Made by a program: the position numbers and the translations under genes. The notes under the pieces are model-generated. The model did no database searches and had not been told where the DNA came from. It saw only the letters and a list, made by a program, of their open reading frames with translations. From Elmis aenea (Eukaryota > Arthropoda > Insecta > Coleoptera > Elmidae): a DNA stretch of 64,000 bases. Of the stretch, positions 15,962-58,707 are shown piece after piece. The stretch is taken from positions 39,190,970 through 39,254,969 of the forward strand of contig OX393579.1 of NCBI GenBank assembly GCA_947652605.1. The letters are read 5' to 3'. The number at the start of each line of letters is the position of its first letter. The first letter of the stretch is position 1.

Positions 15962-16093
15962 CAATTTACATACGCATGTGACATGTGTGTACGCGTCTTG
16001 TGCATTCGACATACGCATAGGCATCACACGCGGAAAGGAAATAAAAAATGCACTTTAAAAAGAGATACGAAAGAAAAAAATACGGAAAAAAGT

Positions 16094-16182
16094 GACAACG
16101 ACACGCGGTGTTCCCAAGCGGTCACCCATCCAAGTACTGACCGCGCCCGACGTTGCTTAACTTCGGTGATCGGACGAGAACC
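16094..16182 (-). rRNA. 5S rRNA gene, 3' part (nt 30-118) split by element 1
   Basis: The minus strand reads GGTTCTCGTCCGATCACCGA onward to the 3' end of 5S. It keeps the whole internal control region (box A, intermediate element, box C) but not nt 1-29, which lie across the retrotransposon at 20310-20349. A T-run terminator follows at 16085-16092. This marks the left edge of the array: sequence further left does not resemble the 5S spacer. A C-to-T-type difference near the 3' end (ACGACACG instead of ACGGCACG on the plus strand) distinguishes it from the other copies. Confidence 0.95.
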
Positions 16183-16548
16183 AATTCCAATTCAAACATC
16201 TTTATTGAACATTACTTACATTGATTGCAAACACATTGTTTGCTTACTTTATTGACAATAGTTTAAAGTTCCTACAGCTAAAGAACTGCTTATCTTTAGT
16301 TGAGATTTTATATGTAACTTAAAGCTAACTTATAGATATTTCACATTTATTATTGTTTTTATAGTTTTTGTTGCACTGATTATTTTTTTGTTTTTTGTTT
16401 TGTTTATTGCAGGAAAAATATTAAAAAACCTACATTTACTTCACTTTTTCTTCGCTTACGTATTTACATATTTACATTTACTTCAACTTTTATTTTATAG
16501 CAGGAAAAAAGCTATCAAAAGAAAAACCTGCTTGTATTGAATATTTTT

Positions 16549-19234
16549 TTATAAGTTTTCATTAAAAATTTGTAGGTATTGGTAGGCTAGTTTGTGTTTA
16601 ATGTGAAATGGTGTGTTGTTGTGTCGTATGTTGGTTATGTTTTTAATTAGTGGGTTGGTGTGAGTTTTATTGTAGTGTTTTTCAGAAATTTTGATTATGT
16701 GTTCTCGTATCATTTCAATGTCTATGTTTTCGTAGAGGTCTCGTATTATGGTGTATCTGTCCGAGTTTGTTATTAGTCTTACGCATTTCGTAGCTGTTAT
16801 TGATATCCCGCCCCATACTGGTGCCCCGTAAGTGAGTATAGGTCGTACCAGTGTCTTGTAAATTAGTTTCTTGTTTACAGTGCTTAGGTCACTGTTTTTT
16901 GTCATTAACGGGTATAATGTTTTCATTGTGCCGTATGCCTTGTTTATTGTTTTGGTTACGTGTTGTTTGTACGTTAGTCGGTGGTCGAGGTACATTCCCA
17001 AGTATTTTACAGTTTTTACAGGTGTTATTGGCGTCGAGTCTATTTTTATTGGTGTGAATGTCTTTATGTTCGTGAATTTCCTACTGAAGATGATGTTTTC
17101 CGTTTTGTCAGGGTTAATTTTGATTTTCCACTTTTTGTAGTATCGTTGCAGTATGTCCAGGTGTATTTGTAATTGTTTGTTTGCCACTATGGCGCTGAAT
17201 GAGTGTGCGTATATCGCCGTGTCGTCGGCGAAAAGGGCTATTTTTGTTTTGTCGAATTGTGGAATGTCGTTGACGTAAATGTTGAATAGTTTAGGACTTG
17301 GTACTGCGCCTTGAGGTACGCCCGCTAGTGGCGTTTTAAAGTCTGAATGGTCATTGTTAATGTTTACTTTAAATTTTCGTTCGGTGAGGTATGAGTTTAG
17401 CAGTGCTATTAAGTTGTCTGGTATTTTTAGTTTGATTAATTTGTAAATGAGTCCACTTAGCCAGACTGTGTCGAAAGCTTTTTGTATGTCTAATAGTACT
17501 AGTGCTGTTACGTTGTTTTTGTTAAAATTTATTATTACGTCGTTTGTTATTCGTGATGTTTGTTGTATGGTGTTATGTCCTTCTCTAAATCCAAATTGGT
17601 AGTTGTTCGTTATTTTTAATTTTTTGTCAGTGTTGTTTAGTCGTGTTAGTATCACCTTTTCCGCTATTTTGGATAAGCTGCTTAGCAGACTTATGGGCCT
17701 GTAGTTGCCCGGTAGCTTGTGATTTTTATTTGGTTTTGGTATTGGAACCACCGTTGCGATTTTCCATGCCTCGGGAAAGTGATTTAATTTAAGCTTTGCA
17801 TTAATGATGTAGGTAAGTTGTACGTTGTACCACTGCTTTTTTTATAAGGTTCTTTATAATTTTGTTGTCGATTTTGTCTGGGCCGGGGGCTTTCTTATTA
17901 GGTAAAGTTTTGATGATTGTCCTTATTTCGTTGGGATTTGTCAGTGCTTTTGTCAGTGTAGCATCGTTAGTTGGGCGAGTTGATGATAAGAAATTTCGTA
18001 CTGTTCGTTCGATTTCGATTTCGATTTGTTCTTGGTTAAGTACGTTTATGTCTGTGGTGTGGACCTTGGCGAATGAGTCTGCAATTAGCTCTGCTTTTTC
18101 CGCGTCCGTTAGTACTATCACGTTGTTATGTTCGAGTGCGGGAATTTGTAAATGGGGCTGTTTGAGGTTTTTCGTTATTTTCCACAATGAGTTGTCAGTA
18201 GGTTTTAGTGCTTGCAGTTTGTTGGTCCATTGTTCGTTTCTGAAAGCTTTTATGGCCCGTTTAATTATCGTATTGGTCTCGTTCATTTGTGTTTTGTATT
18301 GTATGTCCGCTGTTCTTTGCCATTTTTTCCTTGATCTGTTGCGGCTGTTAATTAGTATTAGTATGTCGTCTAGCAGTGAGAGTCTGTTAGGGTTAATTGT
18401 TATTAGTTTACTGTGTTTCTGTTTCGTTTTTAATATGGCAGCTGTGTATTTTTTTATTTCTGCATCCAGTTCTTCGGTGGTGTTAATTTGATTATTTATG
18501 GTCAAGTTTTCGTCCAACGTGCGTCTGAATTGTACCCAGTCCGTGTTTTTATATGATGTTATTTGTTTTTTGATGTCCTGTTTAGTAAAGTCTGTAATTT
18601 TAAATGTTATTGGGTTATGGTCAGAGTCCAGTTCGGGTAGTGATATGGGTGTCGTTACGTTCGTGACGTTCTTAGATATGATTAGGTCAATGGTCGACGG
18701 AGTCGTGTTGTTAGGTGGGTAATGGGTTGGTTTGTGCGAGTACATTATGTTAATGTTGTTATTGTCGGAGTAGTCTCTTAAGGTATTGCCGTTTCTGTTG
18801 TTCCTGTTGCACTGCCAGGAGATGTGTTTCGCGTTGAGGTCTCCTATTAATAGCACTCTATTGCTAATCTCAAGTAAGGCGTCCAAGTCTCTTTCCAGGA
18901 ATGTATTCGATGGTCTGTTATATGCGGCAATTATGTGTATGTTATTTGCTAATTTGCAGCAGATGTTTTCTATTGATGTATTGTCTATTTTTATTTCGGC
19001 GTGTGGAATTTTATCGGAAACTAACGCGATAACACCCCCCGCACCTATGTCTGGGTCCCTGTCTTTTCTTAAAATAGTGTAACCGTTGATTTTTAGTTTG
19101 TTTTTTGTTTTGAATTTGGTTTCGTTAATCAAAAATATGTCAATGTCATGGTGTTTTATAAAATTAATAATTTGATCAGTTTTGTTAACTAGTCCGTTGG
19201 CGTTCCAGGTTGCTATAGTCAAGTTAGATGTCAT
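16549..19234 (-). pseudogene. ORF2 endonuclease/reverse transcriptase of element 1, frameshifted
   Basis: The N-terminal 477 codons (19234-17801) hold the APE-like endonuclease: WNANGL, INETKF, AAYNRP, GDLNAKH and SDHNPI. The following 400 codons (17751-16549) hold the reverse transcriptase with LLDIQKAFD, GVPQGA and FADDTAIY. The two frames are separated by a tandem 7-bp duplication (GTTGTAC twice, near 17817-17830) that element 2 lacks. Compared with element 2 it also lacks eight codons after SITATK. The protein nicks 5S DNA and copies the RNA in place by target-primed reverse transcription; this copy is not autonomous. Confidence 0.92.
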
Positions 19235-20254
19235 ATTTGTGTATGTTTTGTGTAAAAGTGTAAAATGTTGTAAATGTATTCATTTTGCTGGTGCATTTTT
19301 TTAGTTGTTCGTTCAGGTCTTGTACAGCCTTTAGCATATTACTTACGTTTATTAGCGTGTTTAGTTCGTGGAACGCGTCCACTAATTCGCCGAGCTGTTG
19401 TTGAGTACTTGTTGATGTTTGTGGCCCTGGGGCCTGACTGGTGGCGGCTGGCTCTTGGGGGTTGCGAGTTGGTGGTGTCGTCCTGGTGATTGCACTGGGG
19501 TTGGATGTTGGTGGCTGTAGTGGCCTGGTCCACGCTTTGTGTAGCGGGGGCGGTGCTGGCACGTATCTCGGGGGTGGCTGGGTCGTTGTTTGCCTGTAGT
19601 GGGTGATGACTTCTATCCTTTTTTTATATACTGGGCATTCGATGTTATTAGCTGTGTGATTTTGGCCGCAGTTTGCACAATTGGCGTTAGTTTCCCTTGG
19701 TTTTTGGCATTCATTCGACCAGTGCGCGTCGCCACACTTCACGCACCTGGGGTTCGCCCTGCAGTTGGACGTGGCGTGGTTCCATTGCTGGCACCGGTGG
19801 CACTGTATAATCAGTTTTTTATTGTGGTGCCTTACCCACTGTATTTTGGTGTAGCACACATATTTCACACATTTTATCAAGTCCTTTAGAGTTATTGTAT
19901 TGTTTGTAATTATCAGGTATAGAGGTCTGTTGCTGCGCATTTTGTAGCATTTTGTATTGCATAGTTTGTATGCGTTTTGTAGATCTTCCTCTATTTCCGC
20001 TGTGGTAGGTTCGCTGTCTAGGCTCTTTAGGAGGAAGGCATGCGATTTTTCACTTTTGTTCGTGTAGGTGTGGAATTCAGTGCCTTCTTGCTCTAGGGCC
20101 TGTATGAGCAACTGCCACTCCTCCTTGTCCTCAACATAGATGTTGGTATTATTTTGTGAGTGTCTTAAATAATACCCTTTTTTATTTTGCTGTTGAGGGA
20201 TTCTGTTAGTTTTTTATGCTCTGTTAGCTTACCGTGTATTATAATAGGCGGCAT
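19224..20254 (-). pseudogene. Gag-like ORF1 of element 1 (Jockey type, needs -1 shift)
   Basis: RNA-binding nucleocapsid-like protein. After an N-terminal region with FHTYTNKSEK and RPLYLIIT (PRE_C2HC-like, as in Jockey Gag) come three zinc knuckles. These are CHRCQQWNHATSNC, CVKCGDAHWSNEC and CANCGQNHTANNIEC, near residues 104-165 of the main frame. A proline-rich stretch and a weakly coiled C-terminus follow. The only in-frame ATG (20254) starts a 29-codon frame (MPPIIIHGKL...). It leads into the main frame only by a -1 shift at A AAA AAG (20177-20183). It overlaps the ORF2 start by 11 nt. Whether the shift is programmed or a defect is unresolved. Confidence 0.8.
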
Positions 20255-20309
20255 CTTATTGATGTTTTTCTTTTTGTCTTCTGTTTTGTTTATTTCGACA
20301 TTAGTGGTG

Positions 20310-20349
20310 GGACGAGAACCGGTGCTTTCAACGTGGTATGGCCGTTGTC
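20310..20349 (-). rRNA. 5S rRNA gene, 5' part (nt 1-40) split by element 1
   Basis: The minus strand starts GACAACGGCCATACC and stops at GGTTCTCGTCC, then enters the retrotransposon. An AT-rich TTTTATTAAG lies about 25 nt upstream in the spacer, a plausible insect 5S upstream element. It lacks all internal promoter boxes. Confidence 0.95.
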
Positions 20350-20426
20350 TGTAATAAAATGCTTAATAAAAGACTCAAGTAGTTATAGTTGCAATGTCAA
20401 ATGTTAAAAATAAAAGAAAAAAAAGT

Positions 20427-20515
20427 GACAACGGCACGCGGTGTTCCCAAGCGGTCACCCATCCAAGTACTGACCGCGCCCGACGTTGCTTAACTTCGGT
20501 GATCGGACGAGAACC
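20427..20515 (-). rRNA. 5S rRNA gene, 3' part split by element 2
   Basis: Nucleotides 30-118 of 5S, identical in extent to 16094-16182, followed by a T-run at 20418-20425. The upstream neighbour is the 3' end of element 2. The matching 5' part is at 24669-24708. Confidence 0.95.
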
Positions 20516-20899
20516 ATACCATACCATATATCTTTATTAAATTTTTAACTAAATATACAGACCAATATCTTAGAAAATATTTCGTTTGCTTAAACTAATT
20601 TACATGTTCAAAGTTCCTGCAATTCAAAATTGCTTATCTTTGCTTATTATTTTTTGTATGATAACTATGTTATCTTAAATCACTGTTTTTAGTTTTATTG
20701 TTTGTAGTATCACTGTCACTTTTATTATTGTTATGTTTTTTTGTAGGAAAATGATGTAAAAAAACCTACATTTACTTCACTTTTGCTTCATTTACATATT
20801 TACATATTTACATTTATTTCAGTTTTTATTTTATTTTATTTTATTTTTTAGCAGGAAAAAAAGGCTAACCAAAAAAAACCTGCTTGTATTGTTTATTTT

Positions 20900-23593
20900 T
20901 TATAAGTTTTCATTAAAGATTTGTAGGTGTTGGTACGCTAGTTTGTGTTTTATTCGAAAAGGTGTGTTGTTGTGTCGTATGTTGGTTATGTTTTTGATTA
21001 GTGGGTTAGTGTGAGTTTTATTGTAGTGTTTTTCAGACATTTTGATTATGTGTTCTCGTATTGTTTCGATGTCTATGTTTGCGTAGAGGTCTCGTATCCT
21101 GGTGTATCTGTTTGAGTTTGTTATTAGTCTTACGCATTTGTTTTGGAATGATTGTAAAGGTTTCGTAGCTGTTATTGATATCCCGCCCCATACTGGTGCC
21201 CCGTAAGTGAGAATAGGTCGTACCAGTGTCGTATAAATTAGTTTCTTGTTTGCAGTGCTTAGGTCACTGTTTTTCGCCATTAGCTGGTATAATGTTTTCA
21301 TTGTGGCGTATGCCTTGTTGATTGTCTTGGTTACGTGTTGTTTGTACGTTAGTCGGTGGTCGAGGTACATTCCTAAGTATTTTACAGTTTTTACAGGTGT
21401 TATTGGAGTCGAGTCTATTTTTATTGGCGTGAATGACTTTATGTTCGTGAATTTCCTACTGAATATGATGTTTTCCGTTTTGTCAGGGTTTATTTTGATT
21501 TTCCACTTTTTGTAGTATCGTTGCAGTATGTCCAGGTGTATTTGTAATTGTTTGTTTGCCACTATGGCGCTGAATGAGTGTGCGTATATCGCCGTGTCGT
21601 CGGCGAAAAGGGCTATTTTAGTTTTGTCAAAAAGTGGAATGTCGTTGACGTAAATGTTGAATAGTTTAGGACTTAGTACTGTGCCTTGAGGTACGCCAGC
21701 TAGTGGCGTTTTAAAGTCTGAATGGTCGTTGTTTATGTTTACTTTAAATTTTCGTTCGGTGAGGTATGAGTTTAGCAGTGCTATTAAGTTGTCTGGTATT
21801 TTTAGTTTGATTAGTTTGTATATGAGTCCACTTAGCCAGACCGTGTCGAAGGCTTTTTGTATGTCTAATAGTACTAGTGCTGTTACGTTGTTTTTGTTAA
21901 AATTTATTATTATGTCGTTTGTTATTCGTGATATTTGTTGTATGGTGTTATGTCCTTCTCTAAATCCAAATTGGTAGTTGTTCGTTATTTTCAATTTTTT
22001 GTCAATGTTGTTTAGTCGTGTTACTATCACCTTTTCCGCTATTTTGGATAAGCTGCTTAGCAGACTTATGGGCCTGTAATTGCCCGGTAGCTTGTGATTT
22101 TTATTTGGTTTAGGTATAGGAACCACCGTTGCCATTTTCCATGCTTTGGGAAAGTGATTTAATTTAAGCATTGCATTAATGATGTAGGTAAGTTGTACCA
22201 CTGCTTTTTTTGTGAGGTTCTTTATAATTTTGTTGTCGATTTTGTCTGGGCCGGGGGCTTTTTTATTAGGCAAAGTTTTGATGATTCTCCTTATTTCGTT
22301 GGGATTTGTCAGTGCTTTTGTCAGTGTAGCTTCGTTAGTTGGGCGAGCTGATGATAAGAAATTTCGTACTGTTCGTTCGATTTCGATTTGTTCTTGGTTA
22401 AGTACGTTTATGTCTGTGTTGTGGACCTTGGCGAATGAGTCTGCAATTAGCTCTGCTTTTTCCGCGTCCGTTAGGACTATAACGTTATTATGTTCGAGTG
22501 CGGGTATTTTTGAATGGGTCTGTTTGAGCTTTTTCGTTATTTTCCACAAGGAGTTGTCAGTAGGTTTTAGCGCCTGCAGCTTGTTGGTCCATTGTTCGTT
22601 TCTGAAAGTTTTTATGGCCTGTTTAATTGTCGTATTGGTCTCGTTCATTTGCGTTTTGTATTGTATGTCCGCTGTTCTTTGCCATTTTTTCCTTGATCTG
22701 TTGCGGCTGTTAATTAGTATTAGTATGTCGTCTGGCAGTGAGAGCCTGTTAGGGTTAATTGTAATTAGTTTACTGTGTTTCTGTTTCGTTTTTAATATGG
22801 CAGCTGTGTATTTTTTTATTTCTGCATCCAGTTCTTCGGTGGTGTTAATTTGATTATTTATGGTCAAGTTTTCGTCTAACGTGCGTCTGAATTGTACCCA
22901 GTCCGTGTTTTTATATGATGTTATTTGTTTTTTGATGTCCTGTTTAGTAAAGTCTGTAATTTTAAATGTTATTGGGTTATGGTCAGAGTCCAGTTCAGGT
23001 AGTGATATGGGTGTCGTTACGTTCATGACGTTCTTAGATATGATTAGGTCAATGGTCGACGGAGTCGTGTTGTTAGGTGGGTAATGGGTTGGTTTGTGCG
23101 AGTACATTATGTTAATGTTGTTATTGTCGGAGTAGTCTCTTAAGGTATTGCCGTTTCTGTTGTTCCTGTTGCACTGCCAGGAGATGTGTTTCGCGTTGAG
23201 GTCTCCTATTAATAGCACTTTATTGCTAATAAGTAAGGCGTCCAAGTCTCTTTCCAGGAATGTATTCGATGGTCTGTTATATGCGGCAATTATGTGTATG
23301 TTATTTGCTAATTTGCAGCAGATGTTTTCTATTGATGTATTGTCTATTTTTATTTCGGCGTGTGGAATTTTATCGGAAACTAACGCGATAACACCCCCCG
23401 CACCTATGTCTGGGTCCCTGTCTTTTCTTAAAGTAGAGTAACCGTTGATTTTTAGCTTGTTTTTTGTTTTGAATTTGGTTTCGTTAATCAAAAATATGTC
23501 AATGTCATGGTGTTTTATAAAGTTAGTAATTTGATCAGTTTTGTTAACTAGTCCGTTGGCGTTCCAGGTTGCTATAGTCAAGTTAGATGTCAT
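20900..23593 (-). CDS. ORF2: APE endonuclease-reverse transcriptase, intact (897 aa)
   Basis: Endonuclease domain about 1-215 with WNANGL (Asn11), INETKF (Glu38), AAYNRP (Tyr105), GDLNAKH (Asp131/Asn133) and SDHNPI (Asp204-His205). The linker is Lys/Asn-rich. Reverse transcriptase spans about 440-760: APGPD, YRPISLL, LLDIQKAFD (Asp577), GVPQGTVLSP, FADDTAIY (Asp665-Asp666), KYLGMYLD. No C-terminal RNase H or zinc knuckle is seen. Start chosen at MTSNLTIATW because the endonuclease fold begins there and it overlaps the Gag stop, as in Jockey-type elements. All catalytic motifs look preserved. Expected role: nick the 5S target and prime cDNA synthesis. Sequence specificity is inferred from insertion position, not from a known binding domain. 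Confidence 0.95.
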   Translation of the reverse strand: MTSNLTIATWNANGLVNKTDQITNFIKHHDIDIFLINETKFKTKNKLKINGYSTLRKDRDPDIGAGGVIALVSDKIPHAEIKIDNTSIENICCKLANNIHIIAAYNRPSNTFLERDLDALLISNKVLLIGDLNAKHISWQCNRNNRNGNTLRDYSDNNNINIMYSHKPTHYPPNNTTPSTIDLIISKNVMNVTTPISLPELDSDHNPITFKITDFTKQDIKKQITSYKNTDWVQFRRTLDENLTINNQINTTEELDAEIKKYTAAILKTKQKHSKLITINPNRLSLPDDILILINSRNRSRKKWQRTADIQYKTQMNETNTTIKQAIKTFRNEQWTNKLQALKPTDNSLWKITKKLKQTHSKIPALEHNNVIVLTDAEKAELIADSFAKVHNTDINVLNQEQIEIERTVRNFLSSARPTNEATLTKALTNPNEIRRIIKTLPNKKAPGPDKIDNKIIKNLTKKAVVQLTYIINAMLKLNHFPKAWKMATVVPIPKPNKNHKLPGNYRPISLLSSLSKIAEKVIVTRLNNIDKKLKITNNYQFGFREGHNTIQQISRITNDIIINFNKNNVTALVLLDIQKAFDTVWLSGLIYKLIKLKIPDNLIALLNSYLTERKFKVNINNDHSDFKTPLAGVPQGTVLSPKLFNIYVNDIPLFDKTKIALFADDTAIYAHSFSAIVANKQLQIHLDILQRYYKKWKIKINPDKTENIIFSRKFTNIKSFTPIKIDSTPITPVKTVKYLGMYLDHRLTYKQHVTKTINKAYATMKTLYQLMAKNSDLSTANKKLIYTTLVRPILTYGAPVWGGISITATKPLQSFQNKCVRLITNSNRYTRIRDLYANIDIETIREHIIKMSEKHYNKTHTNPLIKNITNIRHNNTPFRIKHKLAYQHLQIFNENL

Positions 23594-24613
23594 ATTTGTG
23601 TATGTTTTGTGTAAAAGTGTAAAATGTTGTAAATGTATTCATTTTGCTGGTGCATTTTTTTAGTTGTTCGTTCAGGTCTTGTACAGCCTTTAGCATATTA
23701 CTTACGTTTATTAGCGTGTTTAGTTCGTGGAACGCGTCCACTAATTCGCCGAGCTGTTGTTGAGTACTTGTTGATGTTTGTGGCCCTGGGGCCTGACTGG
23801 TGGCGGCTGGCTCTTGGGGGTTGCGAGTTGGTGGTGTCGTCCTGGTGATTGCACTGGGGTTGGATGTTGGTGGCTGTAGTGGCCTGGTCCACGCTTTGTG
23901 TAGCGGGGGCGGTGCTGGCACGTATCTCGGGGGTGGCTGGGTCGTTGTTTGCCTGTAGTGGGTGATGACTTCTATCCTTTTTTTATATACTGGGCATTCG
24001 ATGTTATTAGCTGTGTGATTTTGGCCGCAGTTTGCACAATTGGCGTTAGTTTCCCTTGGTTTTTGGCATTCATTCGACCAGTGCGCGTCGCCACACTTCA
24101 CGCACCTGGGGTTCGCCCTGCAGTTGGACGTGGCGTGGTTCCATTGCTGGCACCGGTGGCACTGTATAATCAGTTTTTTATTGTGGTGCCTTACCCACTG
24201 TATTTTGGTGTAGCACACATATTTCACACATTTTATCAAGTCCTTTAGAGTTATTGTATTGTTTGTAATTATCAGGTATAGAGGTCTGTTGCTGCGCATT
24301 TTGTAGCATTTTGTATTGCATAGTTTGTATGCGTTTTGTAGATCTTCCTCTATTTCCGCTGTGGTAGGTTCGCTGTCTAGGCTCTTTAGGAGGAAGGCAT
24401 GCGATTTTTCACTTTTGTTCGTGTAGGTGTGGAATTCAGTGCCTTCTTGCTCTAGGGCCTGTATGAGCAACTGCCACTCCTCCTTGTCCTCAACATAGAT
24501 GTTGGTATTATTTTGTGAGTGTCTTAAATAATACCCTTTTTTATTTTGCTGTTGAGGGATTCTGTTAGTTTTTTATGCTCTGTTAGCTTACCGTGTATTA
24601 TAATAGGCGGCAT
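23583..24613 (-). pseudogene. Gag-like ORF1 of element 2 (same -1 shift as element 1)
   Basis: Identical in deduced sequence to the Gag of element 1: same three CCHC knuckles, same proline-rich segment, same HKYDI C-terminus overlapping the ORF2 ATG by 11 nt. The ATG at 24613 opens a short frame that joins the main frame through A AAA AAG at 24536-24542. Because the two Gag regions share sequence by descent or conversion, agreement between them is not independent evidence that the shift is functional. Confidence 0.8.
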
Positions 24614-24668
24614 CTTATTGATGTTTTTCTTTTTGTCTTCTGTTTTGTTTATTTCGACATTAGTGGTG

Positions 24669-24708
24669 GGACGAGAACCGGTGCTTTCAACGTGGTATGG
24701 CCGTTGTC
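24669..24708 (-). rRNA. 5S rRNA gene, 5' part split by element 2
   Basis: Nucleotides 1-40 of 5S on the minus strand, ending at GGTTCTCGTCC, then the element 2 leader (CACCACTAATG). Counterpart of 20427-20515. Confidence 0.95.
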
Positions 24709-24785
24709 TGTAATAAAATGCTTAATAAAAGACTCAAGTAGTTATAGTTGCAATGTCAAATGTTAAAAATAAAAGAAAAAAAAGT

Positions 24786-24903
24786 GACAACGGCACGCGG
24801 TGTTCCCAAGCGGTCACCCATCCAAGTACTGACCGCGCCCGACGTTGCTTAACTTCGGTGATCGGACGAGAACCGGTGCTTTCAACGTGGTATGGCCGTT
24901 GTC
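24786..24903 (-). rRNA. 5S rRNA gene, intact
   Basis: A full 118-nt 5S on the minus strand. GACAACGGC at the 5' end pairs with GCCGTTGTC at the 3' end (helix I). The internal control region GAAGTTAAGCAACGTCGG ... GGATGGGTGACC is intact. A T-rich run right after the 3' end serves as pol III terminator. The unit repeats every 195 bp (118-bp gene plus 77-bp spacer), and the next gene starts exactly 195 bp away. Confidence 0.97.
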
Positions 24904-24980
24904 TATATTAAAATGCTTAATAAAAGACTCAAGTAGTTACAGTTGCAATGTCAAATGTTAAAAATAAAATAAAAAAGGAG

Positions 24981-25068
24981 ACAACGGCACGCGGTGTTCC
25001 CAAGCGGTCACCCATCCAAGTACTGACCGCGCCCGACGTTGCTTAACTTCGGTGATCGGACGAGAACC
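24981..25068 (-). rRNA. 5S rRNA gene, 3' part split by element 3
   Basis: Same 3' fragment as in the other interrupted units, one base shorter near the junction. The spacer to its left reads AAGGAGAC instead of AAAGTGAC, so its terminator T-run (TCCTTTTTT) is slightly altered. The 5' part is at 28344-28383. Confidence 0.93.
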
Positions 25069-25448
25069 AATTTCAATTTTTCCAATTTAAAAATCTTTAT
25101 TAATTTTTCCAATATTTACAAACTGATAATGTACAACATATTGTTTGCTTAATTGCTATTTACATGTTTTATGAAGTACCTCCAATCTACGATTGTTTAT
25201 CTTCAGTTTTTTTTTTTTTTTTTTTTTTTACATGATAACTTATAGTTAACTTATAGCTAGTTCACTTATGTCTTTTGTCCTTATTGTTTTTGTTTCGCTG
25301 TCACTTTTTGTTTTTGTTTGTTCTTTGTAGGAAACGATTTAAAACCTACATTTACTCGTTCACTTTCACTTTTACGTTGTTGTATTTTGTAAGTAGCAGG
25401 AAAACGGCAGTCTGCAGAAAAAAACCTGCTGCTTTTATTATTCGTGTT

Positions 25449-28154
25449 TTATATGTTTTCGTTGAAGATCTGTAGTGTCTGGTATGGCAGTTTATGTTTA
25501 AGTTTGAATGGTGCGTTGCTGTGTCTGATTTTTGTTATGTTTTTTATTAGTGTGTTTGTGTGTGTTGTGTGTGTGCTTGTGTAGAATTTGTTTGATTGTC
25601 TTATTACGTATTCGTTTATTGTTTCTATGTTTGCTTTTTCGTGTAAAGTTTGTATTCGCGTGTGACTGTCTGAATTAGTGATTAGTCTTAGTAATTTATT
25701 TTGGAATCTCTGTATCGGAGTCATTGTGGTTTTGGATATGTTACACCAAATCGGTGCTCCATAGGTGATAATCGGTCTTATTATGGCCGTGTATATTAAT
25801 TTTTTATTCTGCTTATTTAGTTGGTTATTTTTTATGAGTAGGGGGTAGACAGCTCTGGTTGTAGCGTATGCTTTGATTATTGTTTTCGTTATGTGGGTCT
25901 TATATGTTAGCCTGCTGTCAAGGTGTATACCCAAGTATTTGGTTGTTTTGGATGGGGTAGTCGGGGTATTATTAATTTTTATTGGGTTGAATGTTTTGTT
26001 GTTTGTGAATTTTTTCGAAAAGATTATGTTTTCGGTTTTATCTGCGTTAATTGTGATTTTCCATTTGTTGTAGTATTTTTCGAGTTGATCTAAGTGGATT
26101 TGGATTTGTTTATTTGCGACGATTGCGCTGAATGAATGCGCGTAGATTGCCGTGTCGTCGGCGTATAGGGCCGTCTGCGTTTTTGCGAATTTTGGGAGGT
26201 CGTTTATAAAGAATGTGAAGAGCTTGGGTCCTAGTACGGAGCCTTGGGGTACTCCGGCTTTGGGTTTTTTAATGGTCGAATGGGCGTTGACGATTTTGGT
26301 TTTCATTTGTCGGTCTGTTAGGTATGAGTTGATTAGTTTGATTAGGTTGGTCGGGAATTTTGATTGTATTAGTTTATATATTAGGCCGTCGATCCACACT
26401 TTGTCAAAGGCTTTTTCGATATCTAGCAAGACCATTGTTGTTACGTTATTTTTGTTGAAATTGACTGATATGTCGTTTGTTATTCTTGCAAGTTGGTGTA
26501 GGGTATTGTGTTTGGGCCTGAAACCGAATTGGTTTTCATTTGTTGTTTTTAGCTTTTGCTCAACCTTGTCGAGTCGTTTAAGTATTATTTTTTCTGTTAC
26601 TTTTGATAGTGTGTTAAGTAGGCTAATCGGTCTGTAGCTGTTTGGGTTTTTGGGGTTTTTGTTGGGTTTCAGGATCGGGATGACTGTTGCAGTTTTCCAA
26701 GTTTGTGGAAAGTAGTTCAGTTTTAGGATGGCGTTTATTATGTAGGTTAGTTGTACAATTGTTTTTTTGCTAAAGTTTTTTAGTATTATGTTTTGTATTG
26801 TGTCTGGGCCGGGTGCTTTTTTGTTTGGTAGTGTTTTTATAATTTGTTTTATTTCGCTAGGGGTTGTTAGCATGTGTTTTAATGATTTTTGATCGATGGG
26901 GTGGTGGGTTTGTAAGAATTCGTGTACTTGGTCTGTTATTTTTTGTTGTTCTGAGTTTAGTTTGTTGAATTCTACGTTGTGGATTTTTTCAAAGATGTTT
27001 GCGATCGTTTCTGCTTTTTCTGTGTTTGTTATGAGTGTTCTGTTTTCGTGTTCGAGTGCGGGTATGAGTTGGTTGGAGTTTTTTAGAGCTCTGGTTAGTT
27101 TCCAGAGTGAGTTGTCTTGTGTTTTTAGTGTTAGCAGTTTTTGTGTCCACTGGTTGTTTTTGTGTGTTTTGATGTTTTGTTTTATTCTAGTGTTTAGGCT
27201 GTTCATATTAATTTTGTGTTGTTGTATTCCCGTTCTTTGCCACAGTTTTCTCGCATTATTCCGGTCTTTTATATCGTTTATGATGTTTGGTGGCAGTTGT
27301 GTTTGGTTGTGTTTGATTGTTATAGTTTTTGTGTGTTTGTGTGTGGCTTTAGTAATTGCTGTTGTGAATTTTTGAACTTCGTTATCTAGTTCTGTTTTAT
27401 TTTGAATTTGATTGTTGATCGTGATGTGTTCATCGAGTGTTTTTTTGAATTCTGGCCAGGCCGTGTGTTTGTATGAGGTTTTTTGTTTTAGTGTGTTCTG
27501 TTTATTGATGTTTGTGAGTGTAAATATGACTGGGTTGTGGTCGGAGTTCAGCTGGGGTAGCGAGATGGGTGCCGTTATGTTTGTGACGTTCTTTGAAATG
27601 ATAAGGTCGATGGTCGATGGCGTGGTGTTATTGGGAGGGTAATGGGTTGGGTTTTCCGTGTGCATTATGTTAATGTTATTATTGTCGGAGTAATTTCTAA
27701 GGGTATTGCCGTTTCTGTTGTTCCTGTTGCATCTCCAGGAGGTGTGTTTCGCATTAAGATCGCCTGCTAATATTACTTTATTGTTAATTCCTAGTAGGGC
27801 GTCTAAGTCCCTTTCTAGGAACGTGTTTGATGGCTTGTTATACGCGGCTATTATGTGTATGTTATTAGTTAGTTTAAAGCAGATATTTTCTATTGAAGTA
27901 TTGGCTATTTTTATTTCAGCGTGTGGGATTTTTTTAGAGATTAGCGCGATAACACCCCCCGCACCTATGTCTGGGTCCCTATCTTTTCTTATGGTGGTGT
28001 ATCCCTTGATTTTTATTTTGTTTTTAGTTTTGAATTTTGTTTCGTTAATCAAAAATATGTCAATGTCATTGTGTTTTATAAAATTAGTGATTTGGTCAGT
28101 TTTGTTATGTAGTCCGTTTGCGTTCCAGGTCGTTATTTTTAAGTTAGATGTCAT
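25449..28154 (-). CDS. ORF2: endonuclease-reverse transcriptase, intact (901 aa), subfamily B
   Basis: Same order as the 897-aa protein: TTWNANGL and INETKF, GDLNAKHTSW, NSDHNP (endonuclease, about 1-212), then APGPDT, YRPISLLNTLSK, LLDIEKAFDKVW, GVPQGSVLGPK and YADDTAIYAHS (reverse transcriptase). The FADD of subfamily A is YADD here. The endonuclease is much closer to element 2 than the linker and reverse transcriptase are, which suggests past recombination or strong constraint on target recognition. The frame is open throughout although the element is 5'-truncated, so insertion is probably recent. Confidence 0.93.
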   Translation of the reverse strand: MTSNLKITTWNANGLHNKTDQITNFIKHNDIDIFLINETKFKTKNKIKIKGYTTIRKDRDPDIGAGGVIALISKKIPHAEIKIANTSIENICFKLTNNIHIIAAYNKPSNTFLERDLDALLGINNKVILAGDLNAKHTSWRCNRNNRNGNTLRNYSDNNNINIMHTENPTHYPPNNTTPSTIDLIISKNVTNITAPISLPQLNSDHNPVIFTLTNINKQNTLKQKTSYKHTAWPEFKKTLDEHITINNQIQNKTELDNEVQKFTTAITKATHKHTKTITIKHNQTQLPPNIINDIKDRNNARKLWQRTGIQQHKINMNSLNTRIKQNIKTHKNNQWTQKLLTLKTQDNSLWKLTRALKNSNQLIPALEHENRTLITNTEKAETIANIFEKIHNVEFNKLNSEQQKITDQVHEFLQTHHPIDQKSLKHMLTTPSEIKQIIKTLPNKKAPGPDTIQNIILKNFSKKTIVQLTYIINAILKLNYFPQTWKTATVIPILKPNKNPKNPNSYRPISLLNTLSKVTEKIILKRLDKVEQKLKTTNENQFGFRPKHNTLHQLARITNDISVNFNKNNVTTMVLLDIEKAFDKVWIDGLIYKLIQSKFPTNLIKLINSYLTDRQMKTKIVNAHSTIKKPKAGVPQGSVLGPKLFTFFINDLPKFAKTQTALYADDTAIYAHSFSAIVANKQIQIHLDQLEKYYNKWKITINADKTENIIFSKKFTNNKTFNPIKINNTPTTPSKTTKYLGIHLDSRLTYKTHITKTIIKAYATTRAVYPLLIKNNQLNKQNKKLIYTAIIRPIITYGAPIWCNISKTTMTPIQRFQNKLLRLITNSDSHTRIQTLHEKANIETINEYVIRQSNKFYTSTHTTHTNTLIKNITKIRHSNAPFKLKHKLPYQTLQIFNENI

Positions 28155-28343
28155 ATTTGTGTAGGTTTTGTGTAAAAGTGTAAAATGTTGAAAATGTTTC
28201 TATTTTGTTTGTACATTGTTTTAGGAGGGCGTTGAGATCTTTTATAGCTGTTAGCATGTTACTTACATTTATTAGCGTGTTTAGTTCTTGGAACGCGTCC
28301 ACTAGTCCGCCGAACTGTTGTTGCGCGTTTGTTGTTGTTTGGG
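28144..28343 (-). pseudogene. Truncated Gag C-terminus of element 3
   Basis: Codes the last part of Gag only (QQQFGGLVDAFQELNTLINV ... HKYDI), matching elements 1 and 2 at the C-terminus. Its upstream end fuses in frame with 5S sequence, so the longer open frame to 28428 is a junction artefact. It overlaps the ORF2 start by 11 nt as in the full copies. Confidence 0.85.
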
Positions 28344-28383
28344 GGACGAGAACCGGTGCTTTCAACGTGGTATGGCCGTTGTC
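28344..28383 (-). rRNA. 5S rRNA gene, 5' part split by element 3
   Basis: Nucleotides 1-40 of 5S, ending at GGTTCTCGTCC and joined to the truncated Gag of element 3. Confidence 0.95.
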
Positions 28384-28460
28384 TATAATTAAATGCTTAA
28401 TAAAAGACTCAAGTAGATAAAGTTGCAATGTCAGATGTTAAAAATAAAACAAAAAAAGGT

Positions 28461-28578
28461 GACAACGGCACGCGGTGTTCCCAAGCGGTCACCCATCCAA
28501 GTACTGACCGCGCCCGACGTTGCTTAACTTCGGTGATCGGACGAGAACCGGTGCTTTCAACGTGGTATGGCCGTTGTC
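28461..28578 (-). rRNA. 5S rRNA gene, intact
   Basis: Full 118-nt 5S with intact internal control region and complementary ends, T-run terminator on its left, 195 bp from the next gene at 28656. Confidence 0.97.
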
Positions 28579-28655
28579 TGTAATAAAATGCTTAATAAAA
28601 GACTCAAGTAGTTATGGTTGCAATGTCAAATGTTAAAAATAAAACAAAAAAAAGT

Positions 28656-28773
28656 GACAACGGCACGCGGTGTTCCCAAGCGGTCACCCATCCAAGTACT
28701 GACCGCGCCCGACGTTGCTTAACTTCGGTGATCGGACGAGAACCGGTGCTTTCAACGTGGTATGGCCGTTGTC
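28656..28773 (-). rRNA. 5S rRNA gene, intact
   Basis: Full 118-nt 5S, in 195-bp register with 28461 and 28851. The spacer is nearly identical to its neighbours (TAATAAAATGCTTAATAAAA on the plus strand upstream of transcription). Confidence 0.97.
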
Positions 28774-28850
28774 TGTAATAAAATGCTTAATAAAAGACTC
28801 AAGTAGTTATGGTTGCAATGTCAAATGTTAAAAATAAAACAAAAAAAAGT

Positions 28851-28939
28851 GACAACGGCACGCGGTGTTCCCAAGCGGTCACCCATCCAAGTACTGACCG
28901 CGCCCGACGTTGCTTAACTTCGGTGATCGGACGAGAACC
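28851..28939 (-). rRNA. 5S rRNA gene, 3' part split by element 4
   Basis: Nucleotides 30-118 of 5S, then the 3' tail of element 4. The matching 5' part is not visible because the element runs into the N gap. Confidence 0.95.
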
Positions 28940-31559
28940 AATTCCAATTCCAATTATAAAATCTTTATTAGTTTTTTATAATACATATATACAAACTGGT
29001 ACTATTTATCATAGTGTTTGCTTATTTTATTTTCTATTTACAAGTTTGAAGTACCTACAATCTAAGATTGTTTATCTTCAGTTTTTATTTTTACATGTTG
29101 ACTTAAAGTTAACTTAAGGCTAGTTCACTTGTGTTTTTTGTCTTTTTATTTTTGTTGCACTGTCACTTTCGTTTTATGTTCACTGTAGGAAAATTGTCAC
29201 TAAAAACCTACATTTACTCGTTCACTTTTTGTTATTTGTGCTATGTGTTTTCGTTAAAAATAGGTAATGTTTGGTAGGGTAGTTTATGTTTAAGTTTGAG
29301 TGTCGTGTTGTTGCGTCTGATTTTTGTTATGTTTTTTATTAGTGTGTTTGTGTGTGTTGTGTATGTGTTTGTGTAGAATTTGTTTGCCTGTGTTGATACG
29401 TATTCGCTTATTGTTGCTATGTTTGTTTTTTCATGTAGTGTTTGTATTCTTGTATATCCGTCTGAGTTAGTTATTAATCTTAGTATTTTGTTTTGGAATC
29501 GCTGTAGGGGGATTATTGCTGTTTTTGATATGTTGCACCATACGGGTGCTCCGTATGTGATTATTGGTCGTATTAGGGCCGTGTAAATTAGTTTTTTGTT
29601 TTTTGTGTTTAGTTCATTATTTTTAATGAGTAATGGGTAGACTGTCCTGGTTGCTGCGTATGCTTTTTTCAGTGTGTTAGTAATATGAGTTTTGTATGTG
29701 AGTCGGCTGTCGAGGTGTATGCCTAAGTATTTGGTTGTTTTGGTGGGGGTCGTTGGGGAGTTGTGTATTTTTATTGGGTCGAATGTTTTGTTGTTTGTGA
29801 ATTTTTTCGAGAAAATTATGTTTTCAGTTTTGTCTGCATTAATTGTGATTTTCCATTTATTGTAGTAATTTGCTAGTTGATCTAAGTGGATTTGGATTTG
29901 TTTATTTGCGACGATTGCGCTGAATGAGTGCGCGTAAATTGCTGTGTCGTCGGCGTATAGTGCCGTCTGAGTTTTTGCGAATTTTGGTAGATCGTTAATA
30001 AAGAATGTGAAGAGTTTGGGACCTAATACTGGGCCTTGGGGTACCCCGGCTTTAGGTTTTTTAATTGTTGAGTGGGCGTTGATGATTTTGGTTTTTATTT
30101 GTCGATCTGTTAGATACGAGTTGATTAGTTTGATTAGAATTGCCGGGAATTTGGATTGTATCAGTTTATATATTAGGCCGTCGATCCACACTTTGTCGAA
30201 GGCTTTTTCTATATCTAGCAGGACCATTGTTGTTACGTTATTTTTGTTGAAATTTATTGTTATGTCATTTGTTATTCTTGCAAGTTGATGTATGGTATTG
30301 TGTTTGGGCCTGAAACCGAATTGGTTTTCATTTGTTATTTTTAGCTTTTGCTCGATCTTGTCGAGTCGTTTAAGTATTATTTTTTCTGTTAGTTTTGATA
30401 GTGTGTTTAGTAGGCTAATCGGTCTGTAGCTGTTTGGGTTTTTTGGGTTTTTGTTGGGTTTTAGGATCGGGATGACTGTTGCTGTTTTCCAGGTTTGTGG
30501 AAAATAGTTCAGTTTTATGATGGCGTTTATTATGTAGGTTAGTTGTACTGTTGTTTTTTTACTAAGGTTTTTTAGTATTATGTTTTGTATTGTGTCTGGG
30601 CCGGGGGCTTTTCTGTTAGGTAGTGTTTTTGTTATTTGTTTTATTTCGCTCGGGGTTGTTAGCATGTGTTTGAGTGTTTTTTGATCGATGGGGTGATGGC
30701 TTTGTAAAAATTCGTGAACTTGTTTTGTTATTTTTTGTTGTTCTGTGTTTAGTTTATTGAAATCGGTGTTGTGGATTTTTTCAAAGATGTTTGCGATCGT
30801 TTCTGCTTTTTCGGTGTTTGTAATGAGTGTTTTGTTTTCGTGTTCAAGTGTGGGGATGTGTTGGTTAGAGTTTTTTAGGGCTCTGGTAAGTTTCCAGAGT
30901 GAGTTGTCTTGAGTTTTTAGTGTTAGCAGTTTTTGCGTCCACTGATTGTTTTTATGTGTTTTAATGTTTTGTTTTATTTTGTTGTTTAGATTGTTCATGT
31001 GAATTTTGTGTTGTTGAATTCCCGTTCTTTGCCACTGTTTTCTCGCTTTGTTACGGTCTTTTATATCGTTTATGATGTTTGGTGGTAGTTGTGTTTGGTT
31101 GTGTTTGATTGTTATAGTTTTTGTGTGTTTGTGTGTGGCTTTAGTAATTGCTGTTGTGAATTTTTGGACTTCAGAGTCAAGTTCAGTTTTGTTTTGAATT
31201 TGATTGTTAATCTTTATGTTTTCGTCTAGTGTTTTTCTAAATTCGGACCAGTCGGTTTTTTTGTATGATGTAATTTGTCTTGTCATGTTTTGAAAATGGT
31301 TGTTATTTACTGTGAATTTCACCGGGTTGTGATCGGAGTCTAGTTCAGGCAGGGATTCTGGGAAGCCGACGGAGGGTACATTCTTGTTGAGGATTATGTC
31401 TATTGTTGTTGGGGTAGTCCCATTTGACGGGAAGTGGGTGGGCCTGTCGGGGTACGATATGCTAATGTTATGATCGTTAGTGAGTTCGTAAAGGGTTTTT
31501 CCATTTTTGTTATTTCTGTTACAATTCCAATAAGTATGTTTCGCATTGAGATCACCGAC
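28940..31559 (-). mobile_element. 5S-inserted retrotransposon, element 4 (runs into gap)
   Basis: Third lineage at the same 5S position. The 3' tail is AATTGGAATTGGAATT after AATAAAGATT. Only the 3' UTR and most of ORF2 are visible before the 200-N gap at 31560. The reverse transcriptase is close to element 3, but the endonuclease part next to the gap is more divergent. The 5S 5' half and the element's 5' end are missing from the assembly here. Confidence 0.9.
29241..31559 (-). CDS. ORF2 of element 4, partial (5' end in gap)
   Basis: The frame is open from the gap edge at 31559 to the stop at 29241. The visible endonuclease part has GDLNAKHTYW, NGTTPTTID and LDSDHNPV. The reverse transcriptase has APGPDT, YRPISLL, LLDIEKAFDKVW, GVPQGPVLGPK and YADDTAIY. 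No internal stops were seen. The true start lies in or beyond the gap; a downstream GTG is not a plausible start because it would cut off the endonuclease. A mosaic origin is likely, since similarity to element 3 rises sharply after the endonuclease. Confidence 0.88.
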   Translation of the reverse strand, partial: VGDLNAKHTYWNCNRNNKNGKTLYELTNDHNISISYPDRPTHFPSNGTTPTTIDIILNKNVPSVGFPESLPELDSDHNPVKFTVNNNHFQNMTRQITSYKKTDWSEFRKTLDENIKINNQIQNKTELDSEVQKFTTAITKATHKHTKTITIKHNQTQLPPNIINDIKDRNKARKQWQRTGIQQHKIHMNNLNNKIKQNIKTHKNNQWTQKLLTLKTQDNSLWKLTRALKNSNQHIPTLEHENKTLITNTEKAETIANIFEKIHNTDFNKLNTEQQKITKQVHEFLQSHHPIDQKTLKHMLTTPSEIKQITKTLPNRKAPGPDTIQNIILKNLSKKTTVQLTYIINAIIKLNYFPQTWKTATVIPILKPNKNPKNPNSYRPISLLNTLSKLTEKIILKRLDKIEQKLKITNENQFGFRPKHNTIHQLARITNDITINFNKNNVTTMVLLDIEKAFDKVWIDGLIYKLIQSKFPAILIKLINSYLTDRQIKTKIINAHSTIKKPKAGVPQGPVLGPKLFTFFINDLPKFAKTQTALYADDTAIYAHSFSAIVANKQIQIHLDQLANYYNKWKITINADKTENIIFSKKFTNNKTFDPIKIHNSPTTPTKTTKYLGIHLDSRLTYKTHITNTLKKAYAATRTVYPLLIKNNELNTKNKKLIYTALIRPIITYGAPVWCNISKTAIIPLQRFQNKILRLITNSDGYTRIQTLHEKTNIATISEYVSTQANKFYTNTYTTHTNTLIKNITKIRRNNTTLKLKHKLPYQTLPIFNENT

Positions 31560-31759
31560 NNNNNNNNNNNNNNNNNNNNNNNNNNNNNNNNNNNNNNNNN
31601 NNNNNNNNNNNNNNNNNNNNNNNNNNNNNNNNNNNNNNNNNNNNNNNNNNNNNNNNNNNNNNNNNNNNNNNNNNNNNNNNNNNNNNNNNNNNNNNNNNNN
31701 NNNNNNNNNNNNNNNNNNNNNNNNNNNNNNNNNNNNNNNNNNNNNNNNNNNNNNNNNNN
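31560..31759. other. Assembly gap, 200 N
   Basis: Exactly 200 undetermined bases. It interrupts element 4, and what follows on the right does not resemble 5S rDNA or the retrotransposon. The true distance, and whether the two sides are adjacent, are unknown. More 5S units may be collapsed here. Confidence 0.95.
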
Positions 31760-36100: not shown

Positions 36101-36242
36101 CTAATACACTACTCTACAGCATCGCGTAACTTGATCCAAAAGACTACAAGTGTGTAGTGTAGAATAACGAAGGGAAACATCACGGTTAATATTTTGCGTA
36201 TCCCTGTATAAAATTAAGTAATAGAAAATAATTTACGGTTAC

Positions 36243-37055
36243 CTGCAGTAGGCTCATCTAGGTAAACTACTTGGGGATCGCCAATAAAAGCAATAGCAGT
36301 GCTTAATTTTCGTTTGTTACCACCGCTGAATTCTTTAATTTTTTTATCTAAATGCCTGTTGAAATCAAATACATTTGCCAATTTCTCTGCTATAGCATTA
36401 ACTTCTGATGGTGGTATTCCTCTTACAAGACCAAATATTTTCAAGGTTTCACGTCCTGTGAAATCTTCCAACAATGCATCGAACTGCGGGCAATACCCTA
36501 TGCATTTGTACACTCCCTGGATGTCCTTTTTTAAATTTATACCATTAACCCACACATCACCATAGGTAATTGAGATATCACCCGTCATCATTTTAAATGT
36601 TGTTGTTTTACCAGCTCCATTGATACCCAATAATCCGAAACATTCTTGAGGATTAATCCCAAGTGAAATGTCATTGACAGCTAAAAACTTTCCATAGCAT
36701 TTGGTGATTTTACGCAAGGCGATGCTGTATTGGTTTAATTCACTTTGAGAAGCTTGATTTATTTTATTTTTTTCTTCTAGTACGTCATCGTCTTCTGTTA
36801 GTTGTTCTTTTGGAGGTTTAGGCATCGAATTTCCTTGAATTTTATATTCAAGGAAATTAGCTACACCACATTCAATTAAAATTAGGAGAACAATTAAAAT
36901 TGAACCAACCAATAACATCATTAAAACATTTCTGCCGATTCCTGGATATTCCCATGTAAAGTAAGCTTGAAGTTCCTCTAAAATATAAAAATATTTTTCG
37001 ATATATATTTTTTTTGCAGCAGGGTCGTGCAAAAGAACCTGGTGCAAAATAAGCT
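36243..37055 (-). CDS. ABCA-type transporter exon (last TM helix and NBD2)
   Basis: An 813-bp exon of an ABCA-family lipid transporter. The first part carries YFTWEYPGIGRN and a hydrophobic helix (MMLLVGSILIVLLILIECG), the last membrane span. After an acidic linker comes NBD2: Walker A GINGAGKTTT, Q-loop YCPQFDAL, signature FSGGNKRKLS, Walker B VVYLDEPTAG. The exon ends GCAG/GTAACC at 36243/36242, a canonical donor. The proposed acceptor is TAAAG/AGCTT at 37055, chosen because it keeps phase with the upstream exon at 48110-48382 (all junctions phase 1). The nearby CACAG at 37061 is possible but out of phase. The rest of NBD2 must lie in exons further left, which I did not find. Confidence 0.88.
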
Positions 37056-37089
37056 CTTTACTGTGATTAAGTTTCGTAGGTAATAAAAT

Positions 37090-37200
37090 ACCTTCAGGGT
37101 CAATTCACACCGGCGCGGTGGCGATCCGCGATCATTATTATAAGTAACTTGGTTACTTATAGTGATCGCGGTCGCCACCGCCACCCCGCCGGAGTGAGTT
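37090..37200. mobile_element. CG-rich palindromic MITE next to the splice acceptor
   Basis: GTCAATTCACACCGGCGCGG..GGCGATCCGCGATCA is mirrored by TGATCGCGGTCGCC..CCGCCGGAGTGAGTT around a GTAACTTGGTTAC centre. A related palindrome lies at 49425-49575 (GTCAACTCAAACCGGCGCGA). It begins about 35 bp upstream of the ABCA acceptor, within the usual branch-point range. Confidence 0.7.
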
Positions 37201-54486: not shown

Positions 54487-54522
54487 TTCGATAATGTTAA
54501 AAGTAAAACAAAAGCGCTGATT

Positions 54523-55437: not shown

Positions 55438-55499
55438 CGTGACAGCTTGCAATCATCGACTACTACGAACAGCTTATGAAGAGGTTATGAACAGACTGC

Positions 55500-55680: not shown

Positions 55681-55723
55681 TTCCCGATAATCTAATGAGT
55701 CGAGCGATTGATGTCGGCTTTAT

Positions 55724-57387: not shown

Positions 57388-57389
57388 AT

Positions 57390-58502: not shown

Positions 58503-58507
58503 CGAGG

Positions 58508-58615
<108 letters not shown>

Positions 58616-58707
58616 TAAAACACGGATGCTCTGGGAATATCGTCTTATGAGGTGCGCGGACATCGAAGAAATAAGATCTTAGTTTGAGATATATTTTTTT
58701 CTTTAAA

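Follow-up and report, generated by a model that had tools for sequence, protein, structure and literature searches.

A Jockey-like retrotransposon family inserted at one position of 5S rRNA genes in the beetle Elmis aenea

A 64-kb window of the Elmis aenea genome (64,000 nucleotides; contig OX393579.1, positions 39,190,970 to 39,254,969, forward strand) contains an array of 5S rRNA genes, and four of its seven 5S genes are split by non-long-terminal-repeat (non-LTR) retrotransposons, termed E1 to E4, with three intact genes interspersed. Our analysis indicates that these elements represent a Jockey-like family that inserts repeatedly at one position of the 5S gene, and the junctions suggest that it does so by means of its own endonuclease (EN) and reverse transcriptase (RT); we put the probability of this reading at about 0.94. 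The 3′ junction falls at nucleotide (nt) 30 of the 5S gene in 14 copies, comprising the four in the window, nine at other 5S loci and one at C4:42.69 Mb (loci are given as contig and position). Moreover, copies that are 98.4-99.5% identical, lie on different contigs and enter the gene at the same nucleotide have different 5′ ends.

Results

Organization of the split 5S genes

The 5S genes of the window were called by an Rfam search and then by BLAST with an intact 5S gene. Rfam identified seven 5S genes or remnants, all on the minus strand, and the array occupies 16093-28969 of that strand. The BLAST pieces consisted of three intact genes, which are identical over 119 nt, four remnants beginning at nt 30 and three remnants ending at nt 40. 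All four elements have the orientation of the host 5S gene. The downstream piece behind each element covers nt 30-118 or 30-119, and an upstream piece of nt 1-40 precedes E1, E2 and E3; the BLAST rows of nt 1-46 at E1 and E2 overrun nt 40 through chance similarity to the element. An initial annotation, made from the window sequence, had proposed that four elements split four 5S genes, and each of the four was indeed found to be followed by nt 30 of the 5S gene. The features are as follows (window coordinates, strand, description and evidence).

16093-16182, minus: 5S remnant nt 30-119 after E1 (Rfam, BLAST)
16183-20309, minus: element E1, with 5′-truncated Gag, open reading frame 2 (ORF2) in two open pieces and 3′ untranslated region (3′UTR) (BLAST, ORFs, alignment)
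16265-16297, minus: 3′UTR stem-loop of E1 (coordinates by eye)
20310-20349, minus: 5S remnant nt 1-40 before E1 (BLAST)
20426-20515, minus: 5S remnant nt 30-119 after E2 (Rfam, BLAST)
20516-24668, minus: element E2, 5′-truncated in Gag, ORF2 open (BLAST, ORFs)
20610-20641, minus: 3′UTR stem-loop of E2 (coordinates by eye)
20900-23593, minus: E2 ORF2, 897 aa from the first Met, APE-type endonuclease and RT (Pfam RVT_1 9.6e-40, Exo_endo_phos_2 4.5e-18)
23583-24572, minus: E2 Gag (ORF1), open stretch that carries zinc knuckles and lacks the N-terminal part, frame broken upstream (ORFs, pattern)
24669-24708, minus: 5S remnant nt 1-40 before E2 (BLAST)
24785-24903, minus: intact 5S rRNA gene (Rfam, 115 bits)
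24980-25068, minus: 5S remnant nt 30-118 after E3 (Rfam, BLAST)
25069-28343, minus: element E3, 5′-truncated, ORF2 open, mosaic (Gag end and EN like E2; RT and 3′UTR like E4) (BLAST, alignments, trees)
25173-25204, minus: 3′UTR stem-loop of E3 (coordinates by eye)
25449-28154, minus: E3 ORF2, 901 aa from the first Met (ORFs, Pfam)
28344-28383, minus: 5S remnant nt 1-40 before E3 (BLAST)
28460-28578, minus: intact 5S rRNA gene (Rfam)
28655-28773, minus: intact 5S rRNA gene (Rfam)
28850-28939, minus: 5S remnant nt 30-119 after E4 (Rfam, BLAST)
28940-31559, minus: element E4, cut by an assembly gap, its 5′ side unseen (BLAST)
29048-29079, minus: 3′UTR stem-loop of E4 (coordinates by eye)
29241-31559, minus: E4 ORF2, 772 aa open (ORFs, Pfam)
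31560-31759, no strand: assembly gap of 200 N (sequence)

Splitting yields two pieces of the gene: nt 1-40, which has lost everything downstream, and nt 30-119, which retains the internal control region in full. The gap inside E4, at the end of the array, consists of exactly 200 N and is probably a scaffold join, so that the 5S array may exceed its assembled length.

Junctions, tails and target duplication

Element sequence directly follows 5S nt 40 in E1, E2 and E3, which are all the window elements with a visible 5′ side, and nt 30 directly follows the element in E1-E4 (4/4). The target motif GGTTCTCGTCC occurs ten times in the window, always inside 5S pieces (expected 0.01), and the combination of AATAAAGAT, 10-30 nt and GGTTCTCGTCC occurs four times (expected 0.00). 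The tail between AATAAAGAT and the target is 14 to 24 nt of short repeats: E1 and E4 have GGAATT, E3 has it in a looser form and E2 has GGTAT. Each of the four tails ends in GG, the same two letters as nt 30-31 of the 5S gene, so that the duplication can be read either as nt 30-40 (11 bp) or as nt 32-40 (9 bp). The target duplication is thus 9 to 11 bp, depending on whether GG belongs to the element or to the target, and the 11 bp given initially is one end of this range.

The genome searched was that of the window itself (516.4 Mb, 302 contigs). A pattern of 5S nt 15-40 was found at 47 places, six of them in the window, and the stretches around all 41 others were examined, yielding 32 full-length and 29 partial 5S rows. 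Nine insertions were readable there (C4:38726669, 38731423, 38735624, 38738888 and 17133310; C7:29626519, 29632685 and 28338869; C1:26210590). Their 3′ junction is at nt 30 in 9/9. The 5′ junction is at nt 40 in six, and one insertion each has it at nt 39, nt 31 and nt 29. These insertions explain 18 partial rows; the 11 that remain of the 29 are truncations or fragments without this element adjoining. With the window included, 5′ junctions were read in 12 copies, those of E4 and of the C4:42.69 Mb copy not being visible, and nine of them are at nt 40. Since three of these nine (E1, E2 and C4:38726669) represent one shared junction, there are ten distinct 5′ junctions among the 12 read, seven of them at nt 40. 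The initial statement that the element follows nt 40 holds for E1-E3; genome-wide, this junction is seen in 9/12.

The genome search with ORF2 returned 52 rows, of which 14 (12 copies) were 61-100% identical and 38 were 32-36% identical; because the protein search scored 51 of 14393 candidates, the copy counts are lower bounds. All of the at least 12 copies found with 60% identity or more (12/12) lie in 5S genes: eleven are among the known 5S insertions, and the twelfth, C4:42690009, continues into 5S nt 30-119. Both ORFs are open in at least one copy outside the window. In addition, two 3′UTR searches gave 18 rows and 14 rows, and their union amounts to 17 copies when two C7 rows 2.7 kb apart are counted as one interrupted copy. 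Thirteen of the 17 are in 5S genes, three are unscorable because the 3′ end is lost, and one has a non-5S flank (C4:39473805); with the latter counted, 14 of 15 readable 3′ ends lie at 5S nt 30. Numerous copies outside 5S genes, which the initial annotation had named as a refuting outcome, were sought by these searches, and the outcome was 12/12 and 13/17 copies in 5S.

The targets are RNA polymerase III genes, and it could be that the RNA polymerase III machinery, instead of endonuclease sequence specificity, directs integration. This is the case argued for TRE5-A of Dictyostelium, for which the spacing between integration sites and tRNA and 5S genes is attributed to TFIIIB and TFIIIC in the available part of the published account (PMC5391098). 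However, TRE5-A lands 37-42 bp upstream of 5S genes according to the same part (PMC5391098), whereas 14 copies of the present family have their 3′ junction at one nucleotide within the transcribed gene (tRNA genes lay outside the search). Guidance by the RNA polymerase III machinery is therefore considered improbable.

Lineages, selection and the mosaic structure of E3

Comparison of the sequences indicates that the 5S-targeting family comprises at least four lineages, one of them mosaic; the initial annotation had correctly seen several subfamilies and had set their number at two or more. E2 and E3 share 86% identity in the EN part, where the E4 lineage has 62% identity to each of them. The RT part pairs E3 with E4, at 89% identity, and there E2 has 62% identity to each. 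Trees grouped E2 with E3 for EN and E3 with E4 for RT, with a support of 100/100 each. The final EN and RT trees contained 20 of the 120 listed proteins and two genomic copies of the E4 lineage with full EN; the first trees had the partial E4 EN, one of them using the first 70 and another 20 of the 120, and one protein alignment took in 26 of the 120. At the DNA level, E3 switches at a point about 1.7-1.9 kb into E2, close to where EN ends. These results indicate that the E3 lineage is a mosaic, in which the Gag end and the endonuclease are E2-like and the RT and 3′UTR are E4-like.

The ratio of nonsynonymous to synonymous substitutions (dN/dS) was obtained by a simple counting method. Over shared parts, E2-E3 had a dN/dS of 0.16 and E3-E4 one of 0.15; the values for the RT part were 0.15 (E2-E4) and 0.11 (E3-E4); and the two ORF2 pieces of E1-E2 gave 0.20 and 0.34. 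The underlying dS ranged from about 0.5 to 2, with saturation in two comparisons that involved the endonuclease piece of E4. The values of 0.11-0.16 point to purifying selection between lineages. Furthermore, the E2 and E4 endonucleases are 62% identical over 207 residues, and both are found at the same 5S nucleotide. As two endonucleases this different reach the same nucleotide, common descent of the 5S specificity seems likelier than two gains.

Independent insertions and exchange within the array

Closely related copies were compared at their 5′ ends. E3 and C4:38731423 are 99.0% identical and have unlike 5′ ends. E4, C4:17133310, C1:26210590 and C4:38738888, which lie on two contigs, are 98.4-99.5% identical where they overlap and have different 5′ ends where these are visible. 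The 5′ ends also differ between E2 and C7:29632685 (99.3% identical) and between C4:38735624 and C7:29626519 (99.0% identical). The amplification of a single insertion, raised in the initial annotation as a possible objection, was examined through these copies. One pair is of another kind: E2 and C4:38726669 are 99.69% identical, have a common 5′ junction and lie 485 kb apart, and they are one insertion duplicated.

E1 and E2 have a common 5′ truncation and 5′ junction, with no differences in 1,348 nt from 5S nt 30 of the preceding unit to element nt 1,142. Relative to C7:29626519, of the same lineage, this truncation removed 434 nt and is located about 100 codons into ORF1. Past the first 1,142 nt the divergence climbs to about a third in the 3′UTR, where E1 is 66-67% identical to E2 and 90-97% identical to C4:38735624 and C7:29626519. 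Thus, the 5′ ends of E1 and E2 are one event followed by exchange within the array, and their 3′ parts are not simple copies. The earlier view that the four elements are not one insertion copied is borne out by their 3′ ends, which differ in all four, and has to be amended for the shared 5′ part of E1 and E2.

These data bear on the alternative that one or a few old insertions were spread by unequal crossing over and gene conversion without repeated targeting. The identity of E1 and E2 in the 5′ 1,142 nt and at the junction, and the recurrence of E2 as C4:38726669, speak for such spread, and homogenisation is also invoked for Tribolium freemani in the accessible part of the report on that beetle (PMC11202950). 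Against it stand the ten distinct 5′ junctions and the occurrence of the same lineage on different contigs with different 5′ ends. In addition, the dN/dS of 0.11-0.16 and the open ORF2s fit actively moving elements and not dead copies. As the sole cause, such spread is refuted, and we regard it as very unlikely to be the main explanation.

A conserved stem-loop in the 3′UTR

A stem-loop is kept in the 3′UTR of all four window elements, with 97.5% of cells paired compared with 26-48% in slid versions, and four pairs are changed on both sides among these four sequences. In 500 shuffles, four reached the percentage paired and four reached the covariation score; the sample of four sequences is small, and the shuffle counts do not amount to a probability.

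Protein architecture and clade

Pfam identified APE-type endonuclease and RT domains in ORF2. No RNase H was among the Pfam matches of the ORF2s, and none was found for E3 at E values up to 10; the absence of RNase H separates Jockey from the I clade. A C-terminal CCHC motif after the RT is carried by Tx1, L1 and R1 elements, and a pattern search found none in E2, E3 and E4. The predicted ORF2 structure had a mean predicted local distance difference test score of 86.4, and its best solved structural match was LINE-1 ORF2p, with whole-chain TM-scores of about 0.5 and a high root-mean-square deviation that make it uninformative on clade. In a comparison of the EN profile with PDB, LINE-1 EN came ahead of TRAS1 and R1Bm through short weak matches, which were not used for clade assignment. 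Among the matches listed, the closest ORF2 relative (P0001) is 62% identical to E2 and to E4, the same distance as between E2 and E4. Of the 120 ORF2 relatives listed, those that carry names belong to a beetle, an ant, a bee, wasps and a louse, and two of them (Formica, Anthophora) are annotated as 'transposon X-element'.

Two zinc knuckles were detected by pattern in each of three Gags, and a third by eye. E2 Gag had no Pfam match above the cut-off, and PRE_C2HC was detected neither in the element's own Gag nor in the closest Gag relatives; it is present in 5/42 Gag relatives by precomputed annotation and in 2/8 of those rescanned. The named Gag relatives among the 42 are from the beetles Tenebrio, Asbolus and Psylliodes and, more weakly, from the moth Eumeta, the last being annotated as 'nucleic-acid-binding protein from transposon X-element'. 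Overall, the protein architecture is of Jockey type by domain content, and membership of the Jockey clade is putative. The APE endonuclease and Jockey-type Gag proposed at the outset are in keeping with the Pfam domains and zinc knuckles, PRE_C2HC being the part that went undetected. In viral contigs, the protein scan found no relative and the 5S 3′-junction pattern had 0 matches; an alignment scan gave one 36% fragment at a contig edge, which was not used.

That the elements belong to Mutsu, the known 5S-specific non-LTR family of the Tx1 group, is scarcely credible given the missing C-terminal CCHC in E2, E3 and E4, the two ORF2 relatives named 'transposon X-element' and the PRE_C2HC of some Gag relatives. 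The target gene is shared, Mutsu being named as 5S-specific in zebrafish in the available portions of two papers (PMC11202950, PMC3706591).

Other 5S fragments and neighboring sequences

Isolated pieces of 5S nt 1-40 were observed outside arrays without an adjoining element at C4:28725230-28725269, C4:28907134-28907173 and C7:24106422-24106461. By eye, the two C4 pieces have the same flanks followed by an apparent 28S rRNA piece, and the C7 piece adjoins another long interspersed nuclear element (LINE). At C2:52506407-52507018 a 5S gene is split by a different insert with apparent inverted-repeat ends (TAGGGTTACCAGA...TCTGGTAACCCTA) and a repeated TCGTCCG-like target near nt 34-41 (both by eye). 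A 5S nt 8-43 piece at C2:18480907-18480942 lies at the edge of an apparent other LINE in non-array DNA, and at C7:28338869-28339841 5S sequence holds a short 3′ end of E1 type, within which lies another insert whose ends, by eye, look like inverted repeats.

Elsewhere in the window, 53057-63999 contains Polinton/Maverick-like genes (integrase core, A32-like ATPase, phospholipase A2-like domain and double jelly roll protein) and a long ORF resembling DNA polymerase by eye. The intervals 44172-45575 and 46405-47136 hold a further reverse transcriptase (RVT_1, by eye RTE-like) and a DDE_Tnp_4 transposase, and an ABC transporter stretch lies at 36214-37104, with named matches in the beetles Dendroctonus and Popillia among 120 listed.

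Discussion

The junctions suggest how repeated insertion by a Jockey-like family could proceed. The ORF2 endonuclease would nick the bottom strand of the 5S gene next to nt 30, and the RT may hold the conserved 3′UTR stem-loop. The GG at the end of the tail could pair with CC at the nicked bottom strand, where cDNA synthesis would start. The top strand would usually be cut after nt 40, giving the 9-11 bp duplication, and synthesis would often stop early and leave 5′-truncated copies. Life in a multicopy gene may limit harm. Mosaics would arise by exchange, both inside the array, through crossing over and gene conversion, and from one lineage to another, as E3 exemplifies. In SART1, an EN domain swap changes the target, and GGUU/AGG of the 3′UTR is proposed to anneal to the nicked target, as stated in the accessible part of that study (PMC7265360).

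Several points weigh against repeated insertion at one position. Three of the 12 5′ junctions read lie off nt 40. Four decayed copies lack 5S in the stretches examined: other sequence breaks into two copies on C7 (14.85-14.86 and 14.86 Mb) and into one on C8 (19.83 Mb) ahead of the 3′ end, and the fourth, C4:39473805 (39.47 Mb; matching in short pieces at about 68-90% identity), terminates close to AATAAAGA in sequence other than 5S. The scoring of ORF2 matches for 5S flanks covers 14 of the 52 rows, the 12 copies of at least 60% identity, and this count is a lower bound. For the stem-loop, the count of pairs altered on both sides was matched or exceeded in 46 of the 500 shuffles, and that of pair types in 354. 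Finally, the mobility of the copies is putative, and cleavage and priming are read from the junctions.

We also lean, with much less assurance, towards the view that a Jockey lineage of beetles, perhaps of insects more widely, has long inherited the targeting of 5S nt 30-40, a property that would predate the split between the E2 and E4 endonucleases and would have been passed between lineages as a module. Its origin is claimed to be separate from Mutsu on the basis of protein architecture and annotators' names; if this holds, 5S specificity arose separately from that of Mutsu. A Jockey-type 5S element with two diverged endonucleases and a natural hybrid would offer a comparative system for what sets the target. 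Like R2, compact APE elements that have a defined multicopy target may also attract interest as tools for gene insertion.

To our knowledge, R1, R2 and Tx1-type elements are the main examples of exact insertion into ribosomal genes. The insect R1 clade elements R1, TRAS and SART resemble the present family in having an APE endonuclease and an exact target in repeated sequence. They differ in their targets, which are 28S or telomeric repeats, in the C-terminal CCHC of the R1 clade, absent in E2, E3 and E4, and, for TRAS1 and R1Bm, in EN matches weaker than that of LINE-1 EN, all of them short and weak. For SART1, a pairing of 3′UTR and target comparable to that suggested here has been proposed in the part of the study available (PMC7265360). 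The zebrafish element Mutsu is likewise a non-LTR element specific for 5S, as the available passages describe it (PMC11202950, PMC3706591). Dada-5S of fish has a 5S target as well, but these are DNA transposons that move without reverse transcription, as far as the accessible text goes (PMC8869645). TRE5-A is, in the part of the account at hand, a non-LTR element associated with RNA polymerase III genes including 5S, but it lands upstream of the gene and its authors tie it to RNA polymerase III factors (PMC5391098).

The nearest known case is in T. freemani (Volaric et al., 2024), for which the available portion of the report describes Jockey-like elements of about 5 kb that interrupt 5S arrays, occur mostly in 5S and are more uniform there (PMC11202950). 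The Jockey-like elements reported there for T. castaneum are not associated with 5S (PMC11202950). Again in that portion, 32 of 113 5S copies of T. freemani lack the first 30 bp, only in arrays with the element, and the authors interpreted these short copies as deleted pseudogenes (PMC11202950). In our search of the open-licence PMC literature, with Repbase and Dfam outside its scope, no description of the exact site, duplication or lineages of 5S Jockey-like elements was found; an entry for this family in either database is possible. The portion of the T. freemani report consulted is without target site, duplication, tails, lineages or mosaicism, and the likeness, of Jockey-like elements in 5S of a beetle host, is one of description (PMC11202950). 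The missing 30 bp fit a junction at nt 30, and the T. freemani elements are probably of the same kind as E1-E4. The truncated 5S 'pseudogenes' of T. freemani would then have a simple reading, as the 3′ halves of target genes behind an insertion.

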